Part shown: one piece after another, positions 22,469 to 44,192 of the stretch
Layout of the letters: the number at the start of each line of letters is the position of its first letter
Numbering within the stretch: the first letter of the stretch is position 1
Source: a virus
Virus record (IMG/VR): IMGVR_UViG_3300042691_042003
Location: 182,082-246,081 of that record
DNA: 64,000 nucleotides
Direction: 5' to 3' (one strand)
Program-made: the position numbers and the translations under genes
Notes under the pieces: model-generated
Seen by the model: only the letters and a program-made list of their open reading frames with translations
The model's database searches: none
What the model was told of the DNA's origin: nothing

Positions 22469-22545
22469 GGGCTCTTAGCTCATTAGGTTAGAGCAACTGA
22501 CTCATAATCAGTAGGTGGCTGGTTCGATCCCAGCAGGGCCCACCA
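22469..22545 (+). tRNA. tRNA with CAT anticodon (Met or Ile2)
   Basis: Canonical cloverleaf: acceptor GGGCTCT pairs with AGGGCCC, anticodon loop CTCATAA (anticodon 22503-22505), T-arm CTGG-TTCGATC-CCAG, and encoded CCA. A CAT anticodon reads Met, or Ile AUA if lysidine-modified; which is not decidable here. Confidence 0.92.
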
Positions 22546-22556
22546 ATAAACCTAAT

Positions 22557-23087
22557 ATGAAAAAGAAGTACAAGTTTCCTCCGGTAGAATTAAGTGATAT
22601 TTGGGCTGCTCTATTTCCAGCAGATTTCCATCAGAAGTATCGATATCTAGGATCTGTTCCTTGGAATGAAGGTGGAGATATTCACGAAGCAATGGAACCT
22701 CTGGTTATCTTTATGGATTACAAAGCTCGTCCTTGGTGGTGTCCTCGTTTTGTTCTTCGTCTTCTTCATCTTTTTGGAGACGATAATTCCGTTGCTCGTT
22801 GCAGGAATTGGCATCTTAGTCAGCTTAAGCGTCGTCTTACTAAAGGGATTGGAATCTGGGATTACAAGACTAAATGGACAGATTACGATTTGCGAATCTC
22901 TATCTCAGGAGATGATCAGATGTATAATCTATCTGATGCTATAGAATCTCACTTCTATAAACGAGGATATAGAGAAGATCTTGCTGAGCAAATCAAAGAG
23001 ATTGATCCTGAAACAAAATTCACTAAAAACAATAACATTGAATCTCTTAAGGAAGAGCTTGAACGTCTAGACAGCGAAGAATCATAA
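22557..23087 (+). CDS. hypothetical protein, 176 aa
   Basis: Start at 22557 chosen because the longer frame runs into the tRNA. Has an aromatic-rich core (PWNEGGDIHEAMEPLVIFMD, RPWWCPRFVLRLLHLFGDD) and an acidic coiled-coil tail. Seen as a conserved phage type but not identified. Confidence 0.6.
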   Translation: MKKKYKFPPVELSDIWAALFPADFHQKYRYLGSVPWNEGGDIHEAMEPLVIFMDYKARPWWCPRFVLRLLHLFGDDNSVARCRNWHLSQLKRRLTKGIGIWDYKTKWTDYDLRISISGDDQMYNLSDAIESHFYKRGYREDLAEQIKEIDPETKFTKNNNIESLKEELERLDSEES

Positions 23088-23091
23088 GATC

Positions 23092-23181
23092 ATGTAATAT
23101 TGATGTACCTTTTTTTGATACTTTGATTTTTTTCAGAAGATAATTTGTATTATATTTACATTATCAAATTAAATAATCAAT
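23092..23181 (+). promoter_or_regulatory. class A promoter block, full form
   Basis: ATGTAATATTGATGTACC, T tracts, TTGTATTATATTTAC, ATTATCAAATTAAATAAT before ATG 23182. Here the left end lies just outside the upstream gene. Confidence 0.72.
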
Positions 23182-23451
23182 ATGAACAATATCATCTTTC
23201 ATTCTCTCGTTCTCGGAGCAAACGTTACAGGAACTTTCGTTGAAGGCTATCACTACGTAGAAGAAACTCTTCCGGTTAACAAATCCGAAGAAGCTCTCGA
23301 ATTTTGCAAATGGATCGATGAAAGCATTGGTGGCGCTTCAATTCGTAATATCGGCATCCTTTACAAAGCTTTCAAAAATCCTACAGACGAAGAGCTTTGC
23401 AAATACACAAACGAATTGAAAGAACGAATCTCATATATCAAATCTCTTTAA
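23182..23451 (+). CDS. hypothetical protein, paralogue of gene at 21366
   Basis: 89 residues, about 60 percent identical by eye to the 21366 product with no length change. Second copy of the duplicated set. Confidence 0.65.
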   Translation: MNNIIFHSLVLGANVTGTFVEGYHYVEETLPVNKSEEALEFCKWIDESIGGASIRNIGILYKAFKNPTDEELCKYTNELKERISYIKSL

Positions 23452-23452
23452 T

Positions 23453-23665
23453 ATGGAAAATCAACCGATTAAAGCTGAATATACTCTCGCAAACGTCGTA
23501 GAATGCATGAGTCTCTGCGAAGATATGCGAAATCCAAATAACTCATTTATCGTAAATTCTGCTTATCGATGGATTCGAGAAAAACTCAAAAGAAATGGAG
23601 AACTAACTACTTCCGATCGTGAAAGATTTATGGAAAAGTTTTATCATCAAGCTAAAAATCTTTAA
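23453..23665 (+). CDS. hypothetical protein, paralogue of gene at 21069
   Basis: 70 residues starting MENQPIKAEYTLANVVECM. In this copy it follows, rather than precedes, the 89-aa gene, so the set has been reordered. Confidence 0.65.
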   Translation: MENQPIKAEYTLANVVECMSLCEDMRNPNNSFIVNSAYRWIREKLKRNGELTTSDRERFMEKFYHQAKNL

Positions 23666-23666
23666 T

Positions 23667-23918
23667 ATGACTCTAGCATATCAAGTCTTTTCAGGCGAAG
23701 AAAACAAGCATGGATTTCAGGAATACGAACTGAAAGCTACTTATTTCGATAAGCAAAAAGCTTTCGAACATTGCGAAAGAATAGCCGAAGAAACTCCTCT
23801 TTATGGAGATATTCTAGAATTTGATGGATGGTATGGTGATGGTAAATATTGCAGTTGGTCAGCTGTTGGATGGAACCGAGTCACTATCAGTAGAATGGAA
23901 CAAATCGAAATACAATAA
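23667..23918 (+). CDS. hypothetical protein, paralogue of gene at 21638
   Basis: Start at 23667 follows the upstream stop. Shares AYQVF.GE, ATYF and FEHCERIAEE with the other copy but diverges in its C-terminal half. Stop overlaps the next start. Confidence 0.6.
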   Translation: MTLAYQVFSGEENKHGFQEYELKATYFDKQKAFEHCERIAEETPLYGDILEFDGWYGDGKYCSWSAVGWNRVTISRMEQIEIQ

Positions 23919-24295
23919 TGATGGACAGAATACAAATCAACGGAGTCTGGTACGTTCGTGAAGACTTCAATTACGTTCGAGAAAAGGAAAGAGAAATGAA
24001 TCTTACGTTCTCACAGACCTGCACGTACGAAACTGATGATTATTGCTGGGAAGCTACTCGTCTATATAAAGACAAAGAAACTTTCTATCCTGACATCGAT
24101 ATCAAATTCACAGATAAATCTTGGACCAAGCCATGGCAAGAAGAATACTGGGATAATAATGCCTGGATGAAAGGAGTTCTTGAAGAAGATCCTGAATCCA
24201 TATTTGAAGCTAAAAATAATATGAACGACGAAGGTATTGCAGATTTCCGAGCATTCCTTAAAAAACTTGTTGAACTCGAATGGTTAACGAAATAA
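23918..24295 (+). CDS. hypothetical protein, 125 aa
   Basis: Trp/Tyr-rich acidic protein (VWYVREDFNYVREKE near the start). ATG overlaps the previous TAA. Not recognised. Confidence 0.6.
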   Translation: MMDRIQINGVWYVREDFNYVREKEREMNLTFSQTCTYETDDYCWEATRLYKDKETFYPDIDIKFTDKSWTKPWQEEYWDNNAWMKGVLEEDPESIFEAKNNMNDEGIADFRAFLKKLVELEWLTK

Positions 24296-24537
24296 TAACT
24301 CCTGAAGAAAAAAGCGAATTGATTCTAAATAAATTTATTGAAATCATTACGCAAACCCCTGTTAAAAAAGGATCATCAATTGCCGTTGAAGAATATATGA
24401 CAGCAAAAGAATGTGCAGAAGCATGTGTTGATTTTATCTACGATTTTATGAAAGATGACGACGATTTACACGAATGCGGACATTTTGCAAATTCGAGATG
24501 GGTTGATTATTACGTAAAAGTTAAAAAAGCTTTATAG
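24280..24537 (+). CDS. hypothetical protein, 85 aa
   Basis: Overlaps the previous gene by 16 bases. Acidic helical protein with YMTAKECAEACVDFIYDFMK. Not recognised. Confidence 0.55.
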   Translation: MVNEIITPEEKSELILNKFIEIITQTPVKKGSSIAVEEYMTAKECAEACVDFIYDFMKDDDDLHECGHFANSRWVDYYVKVKKAL

Positions 24538-24543
24538 AAGATT

Positions 24544-24783
24544 ATGAACATATATCATTTAGATGTCATCACCGGCTACAGTGATTACTCCGGTCTAGCC
24601 AAGTACGAGATCAAGGCCGATGGCTACGAGGCCTACAATTCAGGTTACTATTCCTTTTGGGTCAGGAAGTCTCGACCAGGAAAAACCAGATACGAAGATG
24701 AGGTCGTAGATTACATGGAAACCGTTGCCTCGTTTCCGATTGGCAGGACAATCATTACAAGCATAGAATACAGAGAATCATAA
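24544..24783 (+). CDS. hypothetical protein with atypical composition, 79 aa
   Basis: The coding sequence is visibly richer in G+C than its neighbours (codons GGC, GCC, AAG, GAG, ATC are frequent), unlike the A/T-ending codons elsewhere. This suggests recent acquisition. Product is an acidic, Tyr-rich small protein; not recognised. Confidence 0.55.
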   Translation: MNIYHLDVITGYSDYSGLAKYEIKADGYEAYNSGYYSFWVRKSRPGKTRYEDEVVDYMETVASFPIGRTIITSIEYRES

Positions 24784-24798
24784 CAAACACATAGGATT

Positions 24799-25047
24799 AT
24801 GATAGGACGATTACATAAACGCGAACATGATGAATGGGTCGTTACTTACACTGAAGTTAACGAAACAATCGATCTACAACTTCATCCAGATGATATAAAT
24901 AATCTTGTCGAATTAGATAGAATATTTGATAATCTAGAAGCAAGGATTGCATCTCAACCAAATGTCGAATTTGAAATAGTTAATCATCAGAAATTAACAG
25001 GATCGATAAAATACGCAAAATTGAAATATAATGATAAAGCTAATTAA
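24799..25047 (+). CDS. hypothetical protein, 82 aa
   Basis: Acidic alpha/beta protein (ETIDLQLHPDDINNLVELDR in part). Overlaps the next gene by 17 bases. Not recognised. Confidence 0.55.
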   Translation: MIGRLHKREHDEWVVTYTEVNETIDLQLHPDDINNLVELDRIFDNLEARIASQPNVEFEIVNHQKLTGSIKYAKLKYNDKAN

Positions 25048-25294
25048 AGAATTCTTTCTTTCAGGTATAGAAGCAAACAAATCAATTACAGAAGCGATGA
25101 ATGCTTCTACTAAATCTCATAACAAATCTCTTGAATGGTACGATGTTGTTATAACCAAGGAGATCAACAATCTCAATCTTCAATTTCAAAACAATACAAC
25201 TAATTTAGTTAGATTCTCAGATATGTGTTCTTGTAATCCTAAAAATGGTGGCAACGGAATATGCCATTGCACTGTTGGTGATAGATTAGTTTAA
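25031..25294 (+). CDS. hypothetical protein with C-terminal Cys cluster, 87 aa
   Basis: Helical N-terminal part, then MCSCNPKNGGNGICHC near the end, four Cys plus His that could bind zinc. Not recognised. Confidence 0.55.
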   Translation: MIKLIKEFFLSGIEANKSITEAMNASTKSHNKSLEWYDVVITKEINNLNLQFQNNTTNLVRFSDMCSCNPKNGGNGICHCTVGDRLV

Positions 25295-25299
25295 ATTAT

Positions 25300-25671
25300 A
25301 TGAATAAAGAATTCGTTCCGTACGAACAAGCGGTAGCACTCAAAGAACTAGGTTTTGATGAGCCTTGTTTAGGTTACTATCTAGCAAATACTTTATTTAT
25401 ATCTAATGATAATGTTTATAATTCAACAGACATTCCTGTAATAAAGGCTCCTTTGTATTCACAAGCATTTAGATGGTTTAGAGAGAAGTACGAATTGCAT
25501 TCTCACATATATTCAGACTTCTCTTGGAACATAAGTGGCGGGATCTGGGATTTAAACGGGTATGTTGATTCAAGATATGATTGGGATTCTGAACCTTCCA
25601 AAACATTCGAAGAAGCAGAACTCGATTGTCTCTCTAAGCTAATTGAAATCGTAAAAGAAAACAACAAATAA
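25300..25671 (+). CDS. conserved phage/Bacteroidetes hypothetical, 123 aa
   Basis: FVPYEQAVALKELGFDEPCL and QAFRWFREKY with a terminal TFEEAELDCLSKLIEIVKE segment are the signature of a widespread hypothetical family in phages of Bacteroidetes. Function unknown; supports the host assignment. Confidence 0.7.
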   Translation: MNKEFVPYEQAVALKELGFDEPCLGYYLANTLFISNDNVYNSTDIPVIKAPLYSQAFRWFREKYELHSHIYSDFSWNISGGIWDLNGYVDSRYDWDSEPSKTFEEAELDCLSKLIEIVKENNK

Positions 25672-25673
25672 AA

Positions 25674-25856
25674 ATGGAAATACTACAAGCACTCATAACT
25701 CTCGCCGTACTGCTAGGGTTTTACTTTGCACCAACTCTACTAGCTGGTCATCTGAAACATCGTCAATTTACAGGAATTCTTCTGCTAAATGTCTTTCTCG
25801 GATGGACATTCATCGGTTGGGTTGCTGCTTTAGTTTGGGCAGCACTAAAAGATTAA
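25674..25856 (+). CDS. superinfection immunity protein, T4 Imm-like
   Basis: 60 residues with two membrane helices. The pattern HRQFTGILLLNVFLGWT then IGWVAALVWA matches the superinfection-immunity family that includes T4 Imm, which blocks DNA entry of a second phage. Length is close to T4 Imm (83 aa), slightly shorter. Confidence 0.75.
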   Translation: MEILQALITLAVLLGFYFAPTLLAGHLKHRQFTGILLLNVFLGWTFIGWVAALVWAALKD

Positions 25857-25888
25857 ATCAAAGTATTCAAATTAACATATAATAATAT

Positions 25889-26131
25889 ATGAAAGCAAAA
25901 TTAGAATTTAATTTAGAAGATCCGGACGATTCAATGGCTTTTGATAGAGCTTCAAAATCTCTAGATCTTTGTTTAGCTCTTTGGGATTTTAATTCAAGGA
26001 TTAGAAGTCTTCTCAAATATCCTGCGGAAGGAATTTCGGATGAAGTCTATTCAACTCTTGAAACGATTCAAGACGAATTCCAAACTTGTCTAAGCGATCA
26101 TGGAATTGTTTTAGATAGATTGATTAGGTAA
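25889..26131 (+). CDS. conserved phage hypothetical, 80 aa
   Basis: KLEFNLEDPDDSMAFDRA and ALWDFNSRIRSLLKY then EGISDEVYSTLETIQDEF form a pattern common in phage hypotheticals. Cytoplasmic, helical. Function unknown. Confidence 0.65.
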   Translation: MKAKLEFNLEDPDDSMAFDRASKSLDLCLALWDFNSRIRSLLKYPAEGISDEVYSTLETIQDEFQTCLSDHGIVLDRLIR

Positions 26132-26140
26132 ATAAAAAAT

Positions 26141-26223
26141 GCTCGGGTGTTGTAATGGTAGCCAAGAAGGTCTTAAAAACCTTTGGGAAATTTCCCGTGC
26201 CGGTTCGAGTCCGGCCTCGAGTA
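26141..26223 (+). tRNA. tRNA-Leu (TAA)
   Basis: Class II cloverleaf: acceptor GCTCGGG/CTCGAGT (two G-T wobbles), D-arm TTG...CAA, anticodon stem AAGGT/ACCTT with loop CTTAAAA (anticodon 26174-26176), long variable arm GGGAAATTTCCC, T-arm GCCGG-TTCGAGT-CCGGC, discriminator A. CCA not encoded. Confidence 0.88.
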
Positions 26224-26229
26224 CTTCTG

Positions 26230-26258
26230 GCCAAGTATATATAATAAAAATACTTGGC
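26230..26258 (+). promoter_or_regulatory. inverted repeat around late-promoter-like box, upstream of homing endonuclease
   Basis: GCCAAGTAT (26230-26238) and ATACTTGGC (26250-26258) form a perfect 9-bp stem. The AT-rich spacer ATATAATAAAA completes a late-type box. The right arm lies directly before ATG 26263. Confidence 0.5.
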
Positions 26259-26262
26259 AAAA

Positions 26263-26934
26263 ATGGATTCTTCAAAAGAAATTAAAAAGAGAATACAATT
26301 CGTTTATAAAACTACAAATTTATTAAACGGAACCTATTATATAGGAGTTCATTCTACTTGGAATATTGATGATGGATATCTCGGATCGGGAAAACGTTTA
26401 ATTAGATCGATAAAAAAATACGGGAAAGAAAATTTCAAAAGAGAAATACTTAAAGTTTTTAGTAATTATCAAGATGCTCTCAATTATGAATCATATTTAG
26501 TAAACGAATCTTTATTAGAAGATGAATTGTGTTTAAATTTAAAACCTGGAGGATCTGGAGGATTTTGTAATAATGAGCATAAAGAAAAATTTATAGAATC
26601 TCTTAAAAATTCACAAGAATATGCATCAAAAAAAGGTAGAGAAAAAATTTTATGGCTATTAGAAAATGACATCGAATGGAAAACTAAATATTCTAATAAC
26701 ATAAAAGAAGGTCTTAAAAAATCTAATTTCGATTTTTGCACATTTAAAGGAAAGAAACATACTGAGGAATCAAAACAAAAAATTAGAGAATCTATGAAAG
26801 GGAAAGGCTCTTCTGAATCTAATTCCCAATTTGGTACTCGATGGATAACTAATGGAATTCAAAATAAGAAAATTAATAAAGAAGAATCTATTCCTGAAGG
26901 TTGGATTTTAGGAAGAAAATTAAATTTCACTTAA
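26263..26934 (+). CDS. GIY-YIG homing endonuclease
   Basis: About 223 residues from ATG 26263 (a TTG three codons upstream lies in the hairpin). GIY-YIG core at the N-terminus: FVYKTTN then TYYIGVHS, GYLGSGK, YGKENFKREIL with the catalytic Arg, and YESYLV with Glu. C-terminal NUMOD-type DNA-binding motif GKKHTEESKQKIRESMKG. Like T4 Seg proteins it is freestanding; it sits directly after tRNA-Leu. Expected to spread itself by cutting related phages lacking the gene. Confidence 0.88.
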   Translation: MDSSKEIKKRIQFVYKTTNLLNGTYYIGVHSTWNIDDGYLGSGKRLIRSIKKYGKENFKREILKVFSNYQDALNYESYLVNESLLEDELCLNLKPGGSGGFCNNEHKEKFIESLKNSQEYASKKGREKILWLLENDIEWKTKYSNNIKEGLKKSNFDFCTFKGKKHTEESKQKIRESMKGKGSSESNSQFGTRWITNGIQNKKINKEESIPEGWILGRKLNFT

Positions 26935-26968
26935 ACTGAAACATATAAAGGAAAAAATATTAAAAATA

Positions 26969-27054
26969 AATAATCTCTGGGTGACTGTGGCACATACCTT
27001 AGCCTTAAACCTCGAACCTGGGACCGAGATGGTTGGTAGCAATTTGAGATTATT
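26969..27054 (+). ncRNA. tRNA-sized element closed by a perfect 9-bp stem
   Basis: AATAATCTC (26969-26977) pairs with GAGATTATT (27046-27054). The 86-base span is tRNA-sized, with a D-arm-like segment and a CTTAAAC string resembling a Leu(TAA) loop, but no normal T-arm. It could be a degenerate tRNA or another structured RNA. Confidence 0.35.
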
Positions 27055-27056
27055 AC

Positions 27057-27146
27057 AGTCAGGTAGCAGAATAGGAAAATGCTATACTTAAGCAGAGCAA
27101 GCTGGGTAATTGCTCTTTACAGGTTCGAATCCTGTCCTGACTACCA
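27057..27146 (+). ncRNA. tRNA-like element 1 (non-canonical middle)
   Basis: Acceptor AGTCAGG pairs with CCTGACT; T-arm ACAGG-TTCGAAT-CCTGT; discriminator A and encoded CCA. Length is normal for class II (87 plus CCA). The D-arm GCA...TGC is plausible, but the next 17 bases do not form an anticodon stem; instead AGAGCAA and TTGCTCT make a 7-bp stem around GCTGGGTAA. Anticodon not assignable. Confidence 0.55.
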
Positions 27147-27150
27147 TATT

Positions 27151-27291
27151 ATGAGAAGCAAAACTTTTCAACGAATTCTAGATAAAATGGAAAGAGATCC
27201 GTGGTATATCAAGCTCAAAAGGTCTTTTGTTGTTGAATTGTTTGTTATTCGTAGATTAGGAATTATTAAATATATCAAACATAGAATATAG
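27151..27291 (+). CDS. basic hypothetical protein, 46 aa
   Basis: ATG 27151 is the first start after the tRNA-like element. Product is Lys/Arg-rich with an ERDPWYIKLKRSFVVELFVI core. Enclosed between two tRNA-like elements. Not recognised. Confidence 0.5.
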   Translation: MRSKTFQRILDKMERDPWYIKLKRSFVVELFVIRRLGIIKYIKHRI

Positions 27292-27401
27292 TCAGGATGC
27301 GTAATGGTATACGCTAGTAACATATGGCATTGGTCTACGTAGTACTCTAACTATGTGCATATGAAGAATAGAAAATGCAGGTTCGAATCCTGTCCTGACT
27401 A
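27290..27401 (+). ncRNA. tRNA-like element 2 (112 bases)
   Basis: Same acceptor pair AGTCAGG/CCTGACT, T-arm GCAGG-TTCGAAT-CCTGT and a good D-arm GCGT-AATGGTAT-ACGC. Between D-arm and T-arm there are about 60 bases instead of 22-40, with nested stems CATATG/CATATG and ACGTAG/CTATGT. It ends one base into, and overlaps, the preceding gene. No anticodon assignable. Confidence 0.5.
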
Positions 27402-27415
27402 CAAAAAATAAATTT

Positions 27416-27554
27416 ATGGAAGAAGATGAACGATGTCCAAATTGTGGTGAGTGTGAAAACATTCATACAAATTTTGATTGGAGTGAACCTTGATAGACCT
27501 GTAGAGGAATATCTGTGTAATGAATGTGGAATTTATTTTTTACCAAAACAATAA
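27416..27554 (+). pseudogene. small zinc-ribbon gene interrupted by a frameshift
   Basis: The first frame gives MEEDERCPNCGECENI... and stops at TGA 27491-27493 after 25 codons. Another frame continues DRPVEEYLCNECGIYFLPKQ to TAA 27552-27554. Together they give a CxxC...CxxC zinc-ribbon of about 45 residues. No obvious slippery heptamer. Could be a broken gene, a sequencing error or a recoding event. Confidence 0.5.
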
Positions 27555-27557
27555 AAT

Positions 27558-27677
27558 AGTCAGGTGGCGGAATTGGTTAGACGCTACTGTGGGGCGATAC
27601 CACTCTGTTAAAAACAGCATAAGTTTTTACAATGAGGTACCAGTTGTAAAATGCAGGTTCGAGTCCTGTCCTGACTA
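27558..27677 (+). ncRNA. tRNA-like element 3 (120 bases, Leu-type D-arm)
   Basis: Acceptor AGTCAGG/CCTGACT, Leu-like D-arm GGCGGAATTGGTTAGACGC, T-arm GCAGG-TTCGAGT-CCTGT. The middle is about 35 bases too long. CTGT and ACAG could form the anticodon stem, closing a 24-base loop ending TTAAAA like a Leu(TAA) loop; the variable arm is long (TTTTACAA/TTGTAAAA). Confidence 0.5.
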
Positions 27678-27685
27678 CTAAAATC
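27664..27685 (+). repeat. 22-bp direct repeat, left copy
   Basis: The 3' end of tRNA-like element 3 plus flank, TCCTGTCCTGACTACTAAAA followed by TC, recurs exactly at 27938-27959. The two copies flank the 77-aa gene. Confidence 0.85.
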
Positions 27686-27692
27686 TAAAATT

Positions 27693-27926
27693 ATGAAAAA
27701 ACAAGAAACTCTTGAAGAGGCATCTTGGAAATATAATCCATTAAAAAAACTTGATGGTGAGTTTATAAGAGAGGCTTTCATTAAAGGTGCTCAATGGCAA
27801 TCTGAAAGAATGTATACTTATTATGAACTAAGACAGATTGCATATAATGCTTATTGTAAAGGTCATTTAGATAATCCTACAGAAAATGAATTTAATCTTT
27901 GGGTACAACAATATAAAAAGAAATAA
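27693..27926 (+). CDS. conserved phage-type hypothetical, 77 aa
   Basis: EAFIKGAQWQSERMYTYYEL is a motif common in small phage proteins (FxxGAxWQ). Flanked by exact 22-bp repeats derived from a tRNA 3' end, suggesting insertion as a unit. Function unknown. Confidence 0.6.
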   Translation: MKKQETLEEASWKYNPLKKLDGEFIREAFIKGAQWQSERMYTYYELRQIAYNAYCKGHLDNPTENEFNLWVQQYKKK

Positions 27927-27937
27927 ATAGAAAAGAA

Positions 27938-27959
27938 TCCTGTCCTGACTACTAAAATC
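27938..27959 (+). repeat. 22-bp direct repeat, right copy (orphan tRNA 3' end)
   Basis: Exact copy of 27664-27685, consisting of part of a T-arm and an acceptor strand with no 5' part upstream. The next gene starts at the base after it. Confidence 0.85.
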
Positions 27960-29270
27960 ATGAAGAATCATCTATCAATAAGTCCTATAGACGGCAGATA
28001 TCACGACCAAACTCAATTTTTACACAAGTACTTTTCTGAATATGCTTTAGTTAAAAACCGAGTAAGAGTAGAAGTTGAATATCTCATTAAGCTCGTAGAT
28101 AAGATTCTTCCTAATCGATTAACTAATGTAGACAGGAATTATCTAAGACTTATATATAAAAATTTTAGTGAAGAAGATTTTCAAAGAATCAAGAGAATCG
28201 AAAACGAAATTAAACACGACGTAAAAGCAGTAGAAATATTTCTAAGAGAAAGAGTTTTCGAAGATCTTAAATGTTATGTTCATTTCGGTTTAACTTCACA
28301 AGATGTAAATAGTATTTCTTATTCTCTGGCTTTAAGAGAATGGTATAGTGAAAGTGGATTTACAGAAATCTACAATTTGAAAGAGCAAATCGAATCTCTT
28401 TCTGAACGTTGGTGGAATATTCCAATGGTTTCTAGAACTCATGGTCAGCTTGCTTCTCCTACTCGTTTAGGTAAAGAAATGAAAGTTTTCTCTTATCGAT
28501 TAGAACGAAAAGAAGAAATCATATTCACATTTGCAAAGTTCGGTGGAGCCGTTGGAAATGCAAATGCTCACTATGCAGCTTTTCCTAATGTCGATTGGGA
28601 AGAATTCTTCGAGCAATTTGTAAATTCATTCAATCTAGAAAGATCCGAATGGACAACACAAATCGATTCATATGATAGCTATGCAGAAAGATTCAATCGT
28701 CTTTCAGAAATTTGCACTATCCTTCTCGACTTTTCTAGAGACATTTGGCAGTATATTTCTTTAGATTATCTAAAGCTTAGAGTCGAAGAACATGAGGTCG
28801 GATCTTCAACGATGCCCCATAAAGTAAATCCAATTAACTTTGAAAATGCAGAAGGAAATCTAGGAATTGCAATTGCTCTGTTCCGACATTTTTCCGAAAA
28901 GCTTCCTGTAAGTAGACTACAAAGAGATCTATCGGATTCAACAGTTCTACGAAATATAGGAGTTCCTATCGCACATATGCAAATAGCTATCAATCAACTT
29001 TCTGAAGGACTTGAAAAGCTAGAAGCTAATGAAGAGAAGATTCGTTTAGATCTGTATTCTGATTGGTCGATCATTACTGAAGGTATTCAAACAATTCTTA
29101 GAATTCACGGATTTGATGATGCTTATGATCGATTGAAGACTTTCTCTAGAGGCAAGAGTCCTCTTTCTCTTTATGATGTTCATAAATTTATTGATTCTTT
29201 AGAAATTCCAGAGCATATAAATAAAGAACTTAAATTAATTACTCCTGAAAATTATATCGGTCGTAATTAA
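27960..29270 (+). CDS. purB: adenylosuccinate lyase
   Basis: 436 residues, near full length for the family. Opens with LSISPIDGRY, typical of PurB. HFGLTSQDVNS and RTHGQLASPTRLGKE are the two family helices, and SSTMPHKVNPINFENAEGN is the fumarase/aspartase-superfamily signature loop. It converts adenylosuccinate to AMP and SAICAR to AICAR in purine synthesis. Inside the tRNA region with no other purine gene visible here; a metabolic gene that may raise ATP/dATP supply. Confidence 0.93.
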   Translation: MKNHLSISPIDGRYHDQTQFLHKYFSEYALVKNRVRVEVEYLIKLVDKILPNRLTNVDRNYLRLIYKNFSEEDFQRIKRIENEIKHDVKAVEIFLRERVFEDLKCYVHFGLTSQDVNSISYSLALREWYSESGFTEIYNLKEQIESLSERWWNIPMVSRTHGQLASPTRLGKEMKVFSYRLERKEEIIFTFAKFGGAVGNANAHYAAFPNVDWEEFFEQFVNSFNLERSEWTTQIDSYDSYAERFNRLSEICTILLDFSRDIWQYISLDYLKLRVEEHEVGSSTMPHKVNPINFENAEGNLGIAIALFRHFSEKLPVSRLQRDLSDSTVLRNIGVPIAHMQIAINQLSEGLEKLEANEEKIRLDLYSDWSIITEGIQTILRIHGFDDAYDRLKTFSRGKSPLSLYDVHKFIDSLEIPEHINKELKLITPENYIGRN

Positions 29271-29275
29271 CACAT

Positions 29276-29344
29276 GCGAGGTAAGGAAATGGTATCCGCT
29301 AGGGCTCATAACCCTTGATTCTCAGTTCGAATCTGAGCCTCGCT
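29276..29344 (+). tRNA. tRNA with CAT anticodon (Met or Ile2), second copy
   Basis: Acceptor GCGAGGT/GCCTCGC, D-arm GGA...TCC, anticodon stem AGGG/CCCT with loop CTCATAA (anticodon 29307-29309), T-arm CTCAG-TTCGAAT-CTGAG. One T-T mismatch at the base of the anticodon stem. CCA not encoded. Differs in sequence from the copy at 22469, so the two may have different identities. Confidence 0.82.
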
Positions 29345-29347
29345 ACT

Positions 29348-29438
29348 AGTCAGGTGGCGGAATTGGTTAGACGCAAAAATAGAATTAGTAAGGTCGTAAC
29401 CCCTTTACAATTTACAGGTTCGAATCCTGTCCTGACTG
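29348..29438 (+). ncRNA. tRNA-like element 4 (91 bases)
   Basis: Acceptor AGTCAGG/CCTGACT and the same Leu-type D-arm as element 3, T-arm ACAGG-TTCGAAT-CCTGT. The expected anticodon stem does not pair; AAGG/CCTT closes an 8-base loop TCGTAACC further 3'. Starts three bases after the tRNA-Met, so co-transcribed. Confidence 0.5.
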
Positions 29439-29440
29439 CT

Positions 29441-29540
29441 GATCAGTTTTCTGGTGGTAACGGTCGAAAGACTTCTGTAATCAAAATCCAAGAATTGCTC
29501 CTCTGGTTCTTGGGCTAAATGAGGAAAGAAAACCAGAACT
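29441..29540 (+). other. structured spacer without a gene
   Basis: TTCTGGT (29449-29455) pairs with ACCAGAA (29532-29538), enclosing GTC-GAAA-GAC and CCAAGAA/TTCTTGG hairpins. No coding sequence and no tRNA arms. May be an RNA of its own or a tRNA-processing spacer. Confidence 0.3.
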
Positions 29541-29613
29541 ACGCTGTTAGTTTAATTGCATAAAACCCGGCCCTTCTAAGGCTGATTTACAGGTTGGAGT
29601 CCTGTACGGCGTA
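29541..29613 (+). tRNA. tRNA-Arg (TCT)
   Basis: Acceptor ACGCTGT/ACGGCGT, D-arm GTTT/AAAC, anticodon stem CGGCC/GGCTG with loop CTTCTAA (anticodon 29575-29577), T-arm ACAGG-TTGGAGT-CCTGT. The T-loop has G where C56 is expected. AGA is a favoured Arg codon in this AT-rich genome. Confidence 0.85.
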
Positions 29614-29668
29614 CTAATCGAACTTTTATTTTAATAAAATTAGAATATATAATAAAATAAAGGTTCGA

Positions 29669-43225: not shown

Positions 43226-43402
43226 ATGAAAAAATCTATTTTTATCCTCGCTCTCGTTTCGGTAATTGGTCTTTCATCTTGTACTAGTGAAAAGAAATGC
43301 GAAAATTGCACTACCGATTCAACTGCGGTAATCACTGATTCTACTTCTACCGATTCAACTTCTTGCTGCACGGATTCTTTATCTGTTGACAGTGTAAAAT
43401 AA
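43226..43402 (+). CDS. small Cys/Thr/Ser-rich lipoprotein, 58 aa
   Basis: Signal peptide MKKSIFILALVSVIGLSSC with lipobox LSSC, then a Thr/Ser/Asp-rich mature part with CENC and a CC pair. Lies 6 bases before the tmRNA. Not recognised. Confidence 0.6.
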   Translation: MKKSIFILALVSVIGLSSCTSEKKCENCTTDSTAVITDSTSTDSTSCCTDSLSVDSVK

Positions 43403-43408
43403 AAAACT

Positions 43409-43806
43409 GGGCCCGACTTGGAATTGATTTACGATACATTTTTTTCGTATGCAAGCAGAGTTAGTTGGAAACTCTTAAATAACCTAACAGAATTTTAAAT
43501 GGCGAATCTTTCGTTAATGCAGACGGCAAAGTGTTCTATATGGACACTACTGCTGTTTCTTATGATGAGCCTGTCTTAATGGCAGCCTAATCAGTCGTGC
43601 GGTAACAGCCGATCCTTAAAACAAAGTTACAACCTGCGGTTCCGTTAGAGGTGCTACCCATTTAAGTGAACCTCCCACAATTGCAAGTGACAATGGAAAA
43701 ATAGGAACTTGATATTTTGTTTATTTAGAAAAATAAACTAAGCTTGTGAATGAGTGCATTAAAATGATTGGGAAAGACATGGGTTCGAATCCCATCGGGT
43801 CCACCA
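43409..43806 (+). ncRNA. ssrA: transfer-messenger RNA (tmRNA)
   Basis: 398 bases. The tRNA-like domain is formed by 5' GGGCCCG and 3' CGGGTCC (one G-T pair), T-arm ATGGG-TTCGAAT-CCCAT, discriminator A and encoded CCA. The tag frame runs from GGC 43501 to TAA 43588-43590: 29 residues beginning GESFVNADGK and ending DEPVLMAA. The Gly-Glu start and hydrophobic-Ala-Ala end match bacterial degradation tags, but it is two to three times the usual length. Pseudoknot-like GC-rich stretches follow (43590-43700). tmRNA rescues stalled ribosomes with SmpB, which is not seen here. Confidence 0.9.
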
Positions 43807-43817
43807 AAATTTAAATT

Positions 43818-44192
43818 ATGGAATATTTAGGAATAATTATAGCTAGCTCTCTAGGAACTGCTCTAGTATTTATTTGTATTTATGCTTACATGCAATACAA
43901 AGAATTAAATGATAAGGTAGATATTCAAGATAACTTTCTTAGAAATCTAAGAAAAGATGTAGAAAATTTATATCTTCAACTTGAAAGAACTGAAGATGCT
44001 TTTCAAAACGATATCCGAAGACATATTGAAGATCTTAGAGAAGACTTTAATCATAAAGCCGACGATCTAAGTAATAAGAATATGTTTGATTATCTTAATC
44101 AGGCCTCTTCATTTTTTAATTCTTTTGTAGATAAAAGCGTTTCTTCTAAACCTAATAAAGGAAGGTCTAATAGAAATTCAGAAGAAGATTAA
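43818..44192 (+). CDS. membrane-anchored coiled-coil protein, 124 aa
   Basis: N-terminal membrane helix (residues 3-27), then a coiled coil (30-90) and a basic Ser/Asn tail. Not recognised. Confidence 0.6.
   Translation: MEYLGIIIASSLGTALVFICIYAYMQYKELNDKVDIQDNFLRNLRKDVENLYLQLERTEDAFQNDIRRHIEDLREDFNHKADDLSNKNMFDYLNQASSFFNSFVDKSVSSKPNKGRSNRNSEED

Follow-up and report, generated by a model that had tools for sequence, protein, structure and literature searches.

Phages that carry a tmRNA gene are a known kind, and examples among isolated phages are the mycobacteriophages Bxz1 and Wildcat and Bacillus phage G, whose hosts differ from the one suggested below. The Wildcat tmRNA is reported to be the top-expressed lytic gene of that phage (PMC7474061). 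The tag of Bacillus phage G, AKLNITNNELQVA, has 13 residues, against 29 for the tmRNA analysed here, and no SmpB was found in that phage, as in our record. Joint carriage of tmRNA and SmpB has been reported for huge phages (PMC7162821). Among phages with a related terminase, LR756500, LR756504 and Prevotella phage Lak-B1 each have a tmRNA above the Rfam cut-off, as our record does, with tags of 10 residues (GNNAEMRMAA), 24 residues (DNVNSFEQSILNELFAPVEMAVAA, read by eye) and 10 residues (DDEIEFRMAA, read by eye), respectively, against our 29; long tags are therefore not universal in huge phages. The cellular counterpart is the one-piece ssrA RNA of Bacteroidota (RF00023). The more interesting result of the present analysis concerns the long tags, which run through a whole viral lineage.

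The tmRNA gene lies in the window, the 64,000-nt stretch analysed here, which spans positions 182082–246081 of a 246,081-bp virus contig. The sequence-only reading had called this DNA phage, and the record bears it out: tail fibres and an NAD-dependent DNA ligase are encoded in the window, and a terminase elsewhere in the contig. This terminase is 29–44% identical to those of huge, Tenacibaculum, Chryseobacterium and Prevotella phages, a kinship that suggests, without proof, a Bacteroidota host for this jumbo phage. Genes for UvdE, DHFR, KTSC and BT4734-like proteins lie near the tmRNA. Relatives of the DNA ligase were sought in viral contigs and none was found, and near and distant BLAST searches of 50,697 phage records, with the tmRNA and the DNA around it as queries, gave no useful match. 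Five tRNA genes were called by ARAGORN at window positions 22469–29614 and none in positions 1–191,000 of the record; a 120-nt Rfam tRNA match at 27558–27677, which ARAGORN did not call, is a tRNA-like gene in which an insert or the variable arm is long. The features of the tmRNA locus, in window coordinates, are as follows.

43226..43402, + strand: upstream open reading frame encoding a 58-residue lipoprotein-like protein with an LSSC lipobox (translation); its stop lies 6 nt before the tmRNA
43409..43806, + strand: tmRNA (ssrA) gene, 398 nt with CCA (ARAGORN; Rfam RF00023)
43409..43415, + strand: 5′ acceptor strand GGGCCCG, G3 at 43411 (sequence; 7/7 pairs with 43796–43802)
43457..43488, + strand: pseudoknot PK1, stem S1 AGAGTT/AACTCT and stem S2 GTT/AAC plus GG/CC (scan; compensatory changes in viral relatives)
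43501..43590, + strand: tag frame, 29 codons plus TAA, GESFVNADGKVFYMDTTAVSYDEPVLMAA* (ARAGORN; translation; host-like resume context)
43648..43696, + strand: second predicted pseudoknot, GAGGT/ACCTC with CCATT/AATGG (scan of a single sequence)
43725..43753, + strand: viral-lineage signature TTNGAAAAANNNACTAAGCNTGTGAANGA (comparison of viral and bacterial loci)
43779..43795, + strand: T-arm ATGGG-TTCGAAT-CCCAT (sequence; Rfam alignment)
43796..43806, + strand: 3′ acceptor strand CGGGTCC with U70 at 43800, discriminator A, and CCA at 43804–43806 (sequence)
43818..44192, + strand: downstream open reading frame of 124 residues (ORF list); its ATG lies 11 nt past the CCA

ARAGORN and Rfam concur on the identity, coordinates and strand of the tmRNA exactly as they had been read from the letters. 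The covariance-model search that the sequence-only reading had proposed gave a full-length match to RF00023 (model positions 1–374) at 70.1 bits, over a cut-off of 47, with E = 3.2e-25, a low score relative to those of host tmRNAs. Both ends, the T-arm and the CCA are intact, as had been described, and the tRNA-like domain holds the determinants of an alanine acceptor: the G–T pair noted earlier at 3–70 is present in the folded acceptor as G43411 opposite T43800. In PK1, upstream of the resume codon, each stem shows compensatory changes among viral relatives, in which the GTT/AAC of S2 is replaced by GTAT/ATAC, GAT/ATC or GCTT/AAGT; an alternative register, GTTGG/CTAAC, was scored as well in the scan. 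Resolution is poor downstream of the tag. When PK2–PK4 were sought there, one further pseudoknot was predicted, from this single sequence, with a score no better than those of the best shuffles.

The tag frame had been read as 29 residues that start with Gly-Glu and end in Met-Ala-Ala, and both ARAGORN and translation of 43501–43590 give exactly this peptide. An open run of 29 codons is by itself weak evidence for a tag. The resume context, TTTTAAATGGCGAA (more fully, TTTTAAATGGCGAATC), is nearly identical to those of Bacteroidota hosts, for example TTTTTAAATGGCGAAAAT in the bacterial locus L142, and this match identifies GGC-GAA as a host-type tag start. The base at position −4 of the resume codon is A, which is required and frame-setting in Escherichia coli tmRNA (PMC2481249). 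The A(−4) rule alone also allows the +1 frame, which, read by eye, has 25 codons and ends in Ser without Ala-Ala; the GGC frame is therefore favoured by its host-like context and its Ala-Ala end. The window tmRNA thus shares with Bacteroidota ssrA the tRNA-like domain with G3–U70, PK1, the TTTAAATGGCGAA resume context, the Ala-Ala-stop tag end and a similar overall length. It differs in its tag (29 versus 9–10 residues), in its conserved ends (at most 65% identical) and in the bases after ACTAAGC, which are TGTGAA in the viral and TGTAGA in the bacterial molecules. Because the tag is longer and the total length similar, less sequence lies outside the tag than in Bacteroidota ssrA. Downstream of ACTAAGCNTGT, bacterial tmRNAs have AGN in 115/117 cases, and viral tmRNAs mostly have GAA (46), otherwise AGT, AGA, GAG, AAA or AAG.

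To place the 29-residue tag among others, a single DNA pattern was scanned on viral contigs and, for bacteria and archaea, on a set with one genome for each species; both sets are samples. At least 119 viral stretches matched the tmRNA pattern, which does not bear out the earlier statement that phage tmRNAs are rare. As read by ARAGORN among the matches listed, 46/83 viral tags had at least 21 residues, as did few bacterial ones. However, ARAGORN missed 36 of the 119 viral loci of the first scan and shortened several tags, again among the matches listed, so annotation pipelines, and the gene finders they use, under-report long-tag viral tmRNAs. Such misses and shortenings were seen across viral loci L013–L131; at L013, ARAGORN gives AEYAVAA for the 23-residue tag DEKSTFTFEDAMAFVGAEYAVAA. 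We used a custom parser, applied equally to viral and bacterial sets and preferring Ala-Ala-ending frames in both. Among the matches listed, it assigned tags of at least 18 residues to 54/64 viral and 2/85 bacterial loci (Fisher p = 1e-27, a value that is too strong because the records are not independent), and the long viral tags ranged from 21 to 38 residues. These viral tags form 11 long-tag groups and one short-tag group. Compared by cluster at 50% identity, the counts among the matches listed were 11/12 viral versus 2/3 bacterial (p = 0.37), an uninformative result because clustering this coarse lumps the short tags into a single cluster.

In Bacteroidota, nearly all tags have 9–10 residues; in a separate draw from the phylum, of best-scoring rather than random tmRNAs, this length was found in 29/29 tags read by ARAGORN. 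The window tag, at 29 residues, is about three times as long and unlike every host tag seen in the comparison that the sequence-only reading had advised. That reading's description of the tag as unusually long holds against Bacteroidota but not among viral tmRNAs, where long tags span 21–38 residues and the window's own lineage has 23–29.

This lineage is recognized independently of the tag. Its signature, TTNGAAAAANNNACTAAGCNTGTGAANGA, which does not draw on the tag, was found in 72 viral stretches and in 0/147 bacterial loci. The 77 loci that bear it include the window and overlapping loci; 48 of them could be parsed and yielded 25 distinct tags, all of 23–29 residues, although the 29 unparsed loci could hide other lengths. 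The conserved ends of the window tmRNA are 75% identical to those of the viral loci L040, L033 and L105, and its 25 best end matches are all viral, the best bacterial one reaching 65%. In a tree of 155 tmRNAs, the window tmRNA groups only with the viral loci L040 and L045 (support 94/82); deeper branches are weak and the viruses do not form a single clade. L040, L105 and L382, on IMG/VR viral contigs of 154–434 kb, share the signature and long tags that begin with Gly, and L105 has a hairpin before ACTAAGC that is nearly identical to that of the window. They differ from it in their tags (for example, GKTNVWEAINSFGAPVSQVEFAVAA) and in encoding SmpB within the record. By sequence, the window tmRNA thus belongs to a virus-specific lineage whose tags are, as a rule, long. 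Five of these long-tag tmRNAs had no BLAST match in 50,697 GenBank phage records. A terminase match was found in 13/18 large records of the lineage. Among 14 terminase-bearing viral fragments, mostly short contigs, none had a tmRNA above the cut-off, and one contig that matched the long-tag pattern contained no tmRNA. Overlong terminase matches in L268 (1001–3509) and LR756500 (193362–195687) suggest an intron or intein, and L276, in the terminase relative G003, has a tRNA with anticodon CTA at 1744–1815 (labelled tRNA-Pyl), a possible amber suppressor.

Among tag families that have multiple members, the interior of the tag (leaving out two codons at its start and five at its end) has a pN/pS of 0.335 over 15 non-overlapping pairs. 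Of 128 interior differences, 58 are synonymous, giving p = 5e-9 by plain site counts and p = 3e-4 when 30% of sites are counted as synonymous. The low interior ratio indicates that long tags are conserved as peptides; the measurement is on relatives, because the exact window tag occurs in no close relative. Such conservation speaks for the tag having a role of its own. Tag and backbone also seem to be inherited separately. L119 and L362 share 86% of their tag DNA but only 64, 48 and 59% of their 5′, middle and 3′ parts, whereas L050 and L017 have ends that are 84 and 82% identical around tags that are 52% identical. The first pair has in effect one tag on two backbones and the second two tags on one backbone, which suggests tag exchange between tmRNA backbones.

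The conservation of the interior weighs against the strongest alternative, in which the RNA serves the phage by recycling ribosomes and it makes little difference how long the tag is or what it encodes. In E. coli, the λ-immP22 hybrid phage can grow only if tmRNA is charged and ribosomes are released, whereas proteolysis directed by the tag is needed little or not at all (PMC2862035; PMC2481249), so a role in rescue only is possible, and the 10-residue tags of LR756500 and Lak-B1 (the latter read by eye) agree with it. A neutral tag, however, predicts neither an interior conserved as peptide nor the recurrence of long tags across several viral lineages, and that long tags are conserved speaks for a contribution of the peptide too. 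We regard a rescue-only role as rather unlikely.

No SmpB and no ClpP were found in the window's own record, which may be incomplete, so the tmRNA would rely on host partners; each of the two Bacteroidota genomes examined has an SmpB. The absence of a detected SmpB would also suit a decoy that competes with host tmRNA and keeps the host from trans-translation or tagging, as is described for the tmRNA-like RNA of phage DS6A, which extends barely beyond the tRNA-like domain and inhibits endogenous tmRNA (PMC4131195; PMC11915505). Yet a decoy has no use for a tag frame, whereas this tmRNA retains an unbroken frame with its stop and resume context, and selection acts on related tags. SmpB is encoded in 7/18 large records of the lineage, among them G035 (L040), G027 (L105), G333 (L382), G334 and G335, which hold the window's near tmRNA relatives; these genes suit an active system and count in favour of a working tmRNA. 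A decoy is improbable on these grounds. Still less likely is a bacterial tmRNA fused to phage sequence by capture, at a prophage boundary or through misassembly, which we reject: although integration at tmRNA genes is common (PMC11915505) and the tree puts a small number of viral loci with short tags (L020, L021) among bacterial tmRNAs, the window gene lies between co-directional phage open reading frames, with about 20 kb separating it from the end of the record, its tag is none of the host tags seen and its nearest kin are viral.

We therefore favour, as the probable reading, a working tmRNA of a jumbo phage, probably with a Bacteroidota host, that belongs to a virus-specific lineage and combines ribosome rescue through host SmpB with a phage-specified tag. 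Promoters and terminators around the gene scored at chance level only, and neither flanking open reading frame had a Pfam match; with no promoter or terminator standing out, the tmRNA is probably cut from a longer phage transcript. A host synthetase would charge it with alanine through G3–U70, host SmpB would bind it, and during infection it would enter ribosomes that have stalled on mRNA that is broken or lacks a stop codon. Such a ribosome would then switch to the GGC resume codon, add Ala and the 29-residue tag, and stop at TAA. The ribosome would be recycled and the unfinished protein left with a phage-specified C terminus ending in Leu-Met-Ala-Ala, which a host protease would probably still recognize. 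Both roles proposed earlier, to sustain ribosome cycling or to attach a different tag, are reasonable candidates.

A larger reading, which we consider possible but less likely than not, is that tmRNA lineages specific to phages have evolved in which long tags act as an exchangeable, selected protein-fate signal that gives proteins left unfinished during infection another fate than the short host ssrA tag does, whether through another protease or adaptor or through protection. Phage tmRNAs are known; no report was found, in the literature searched, of tmRNA lineages of uncultured viruses with long, peptide-conserved tags. The apparent swaps of tag modules provide ready-made test pairs. If the tags act, phages would decide anew, during infection, what becomes of stalled proteins.
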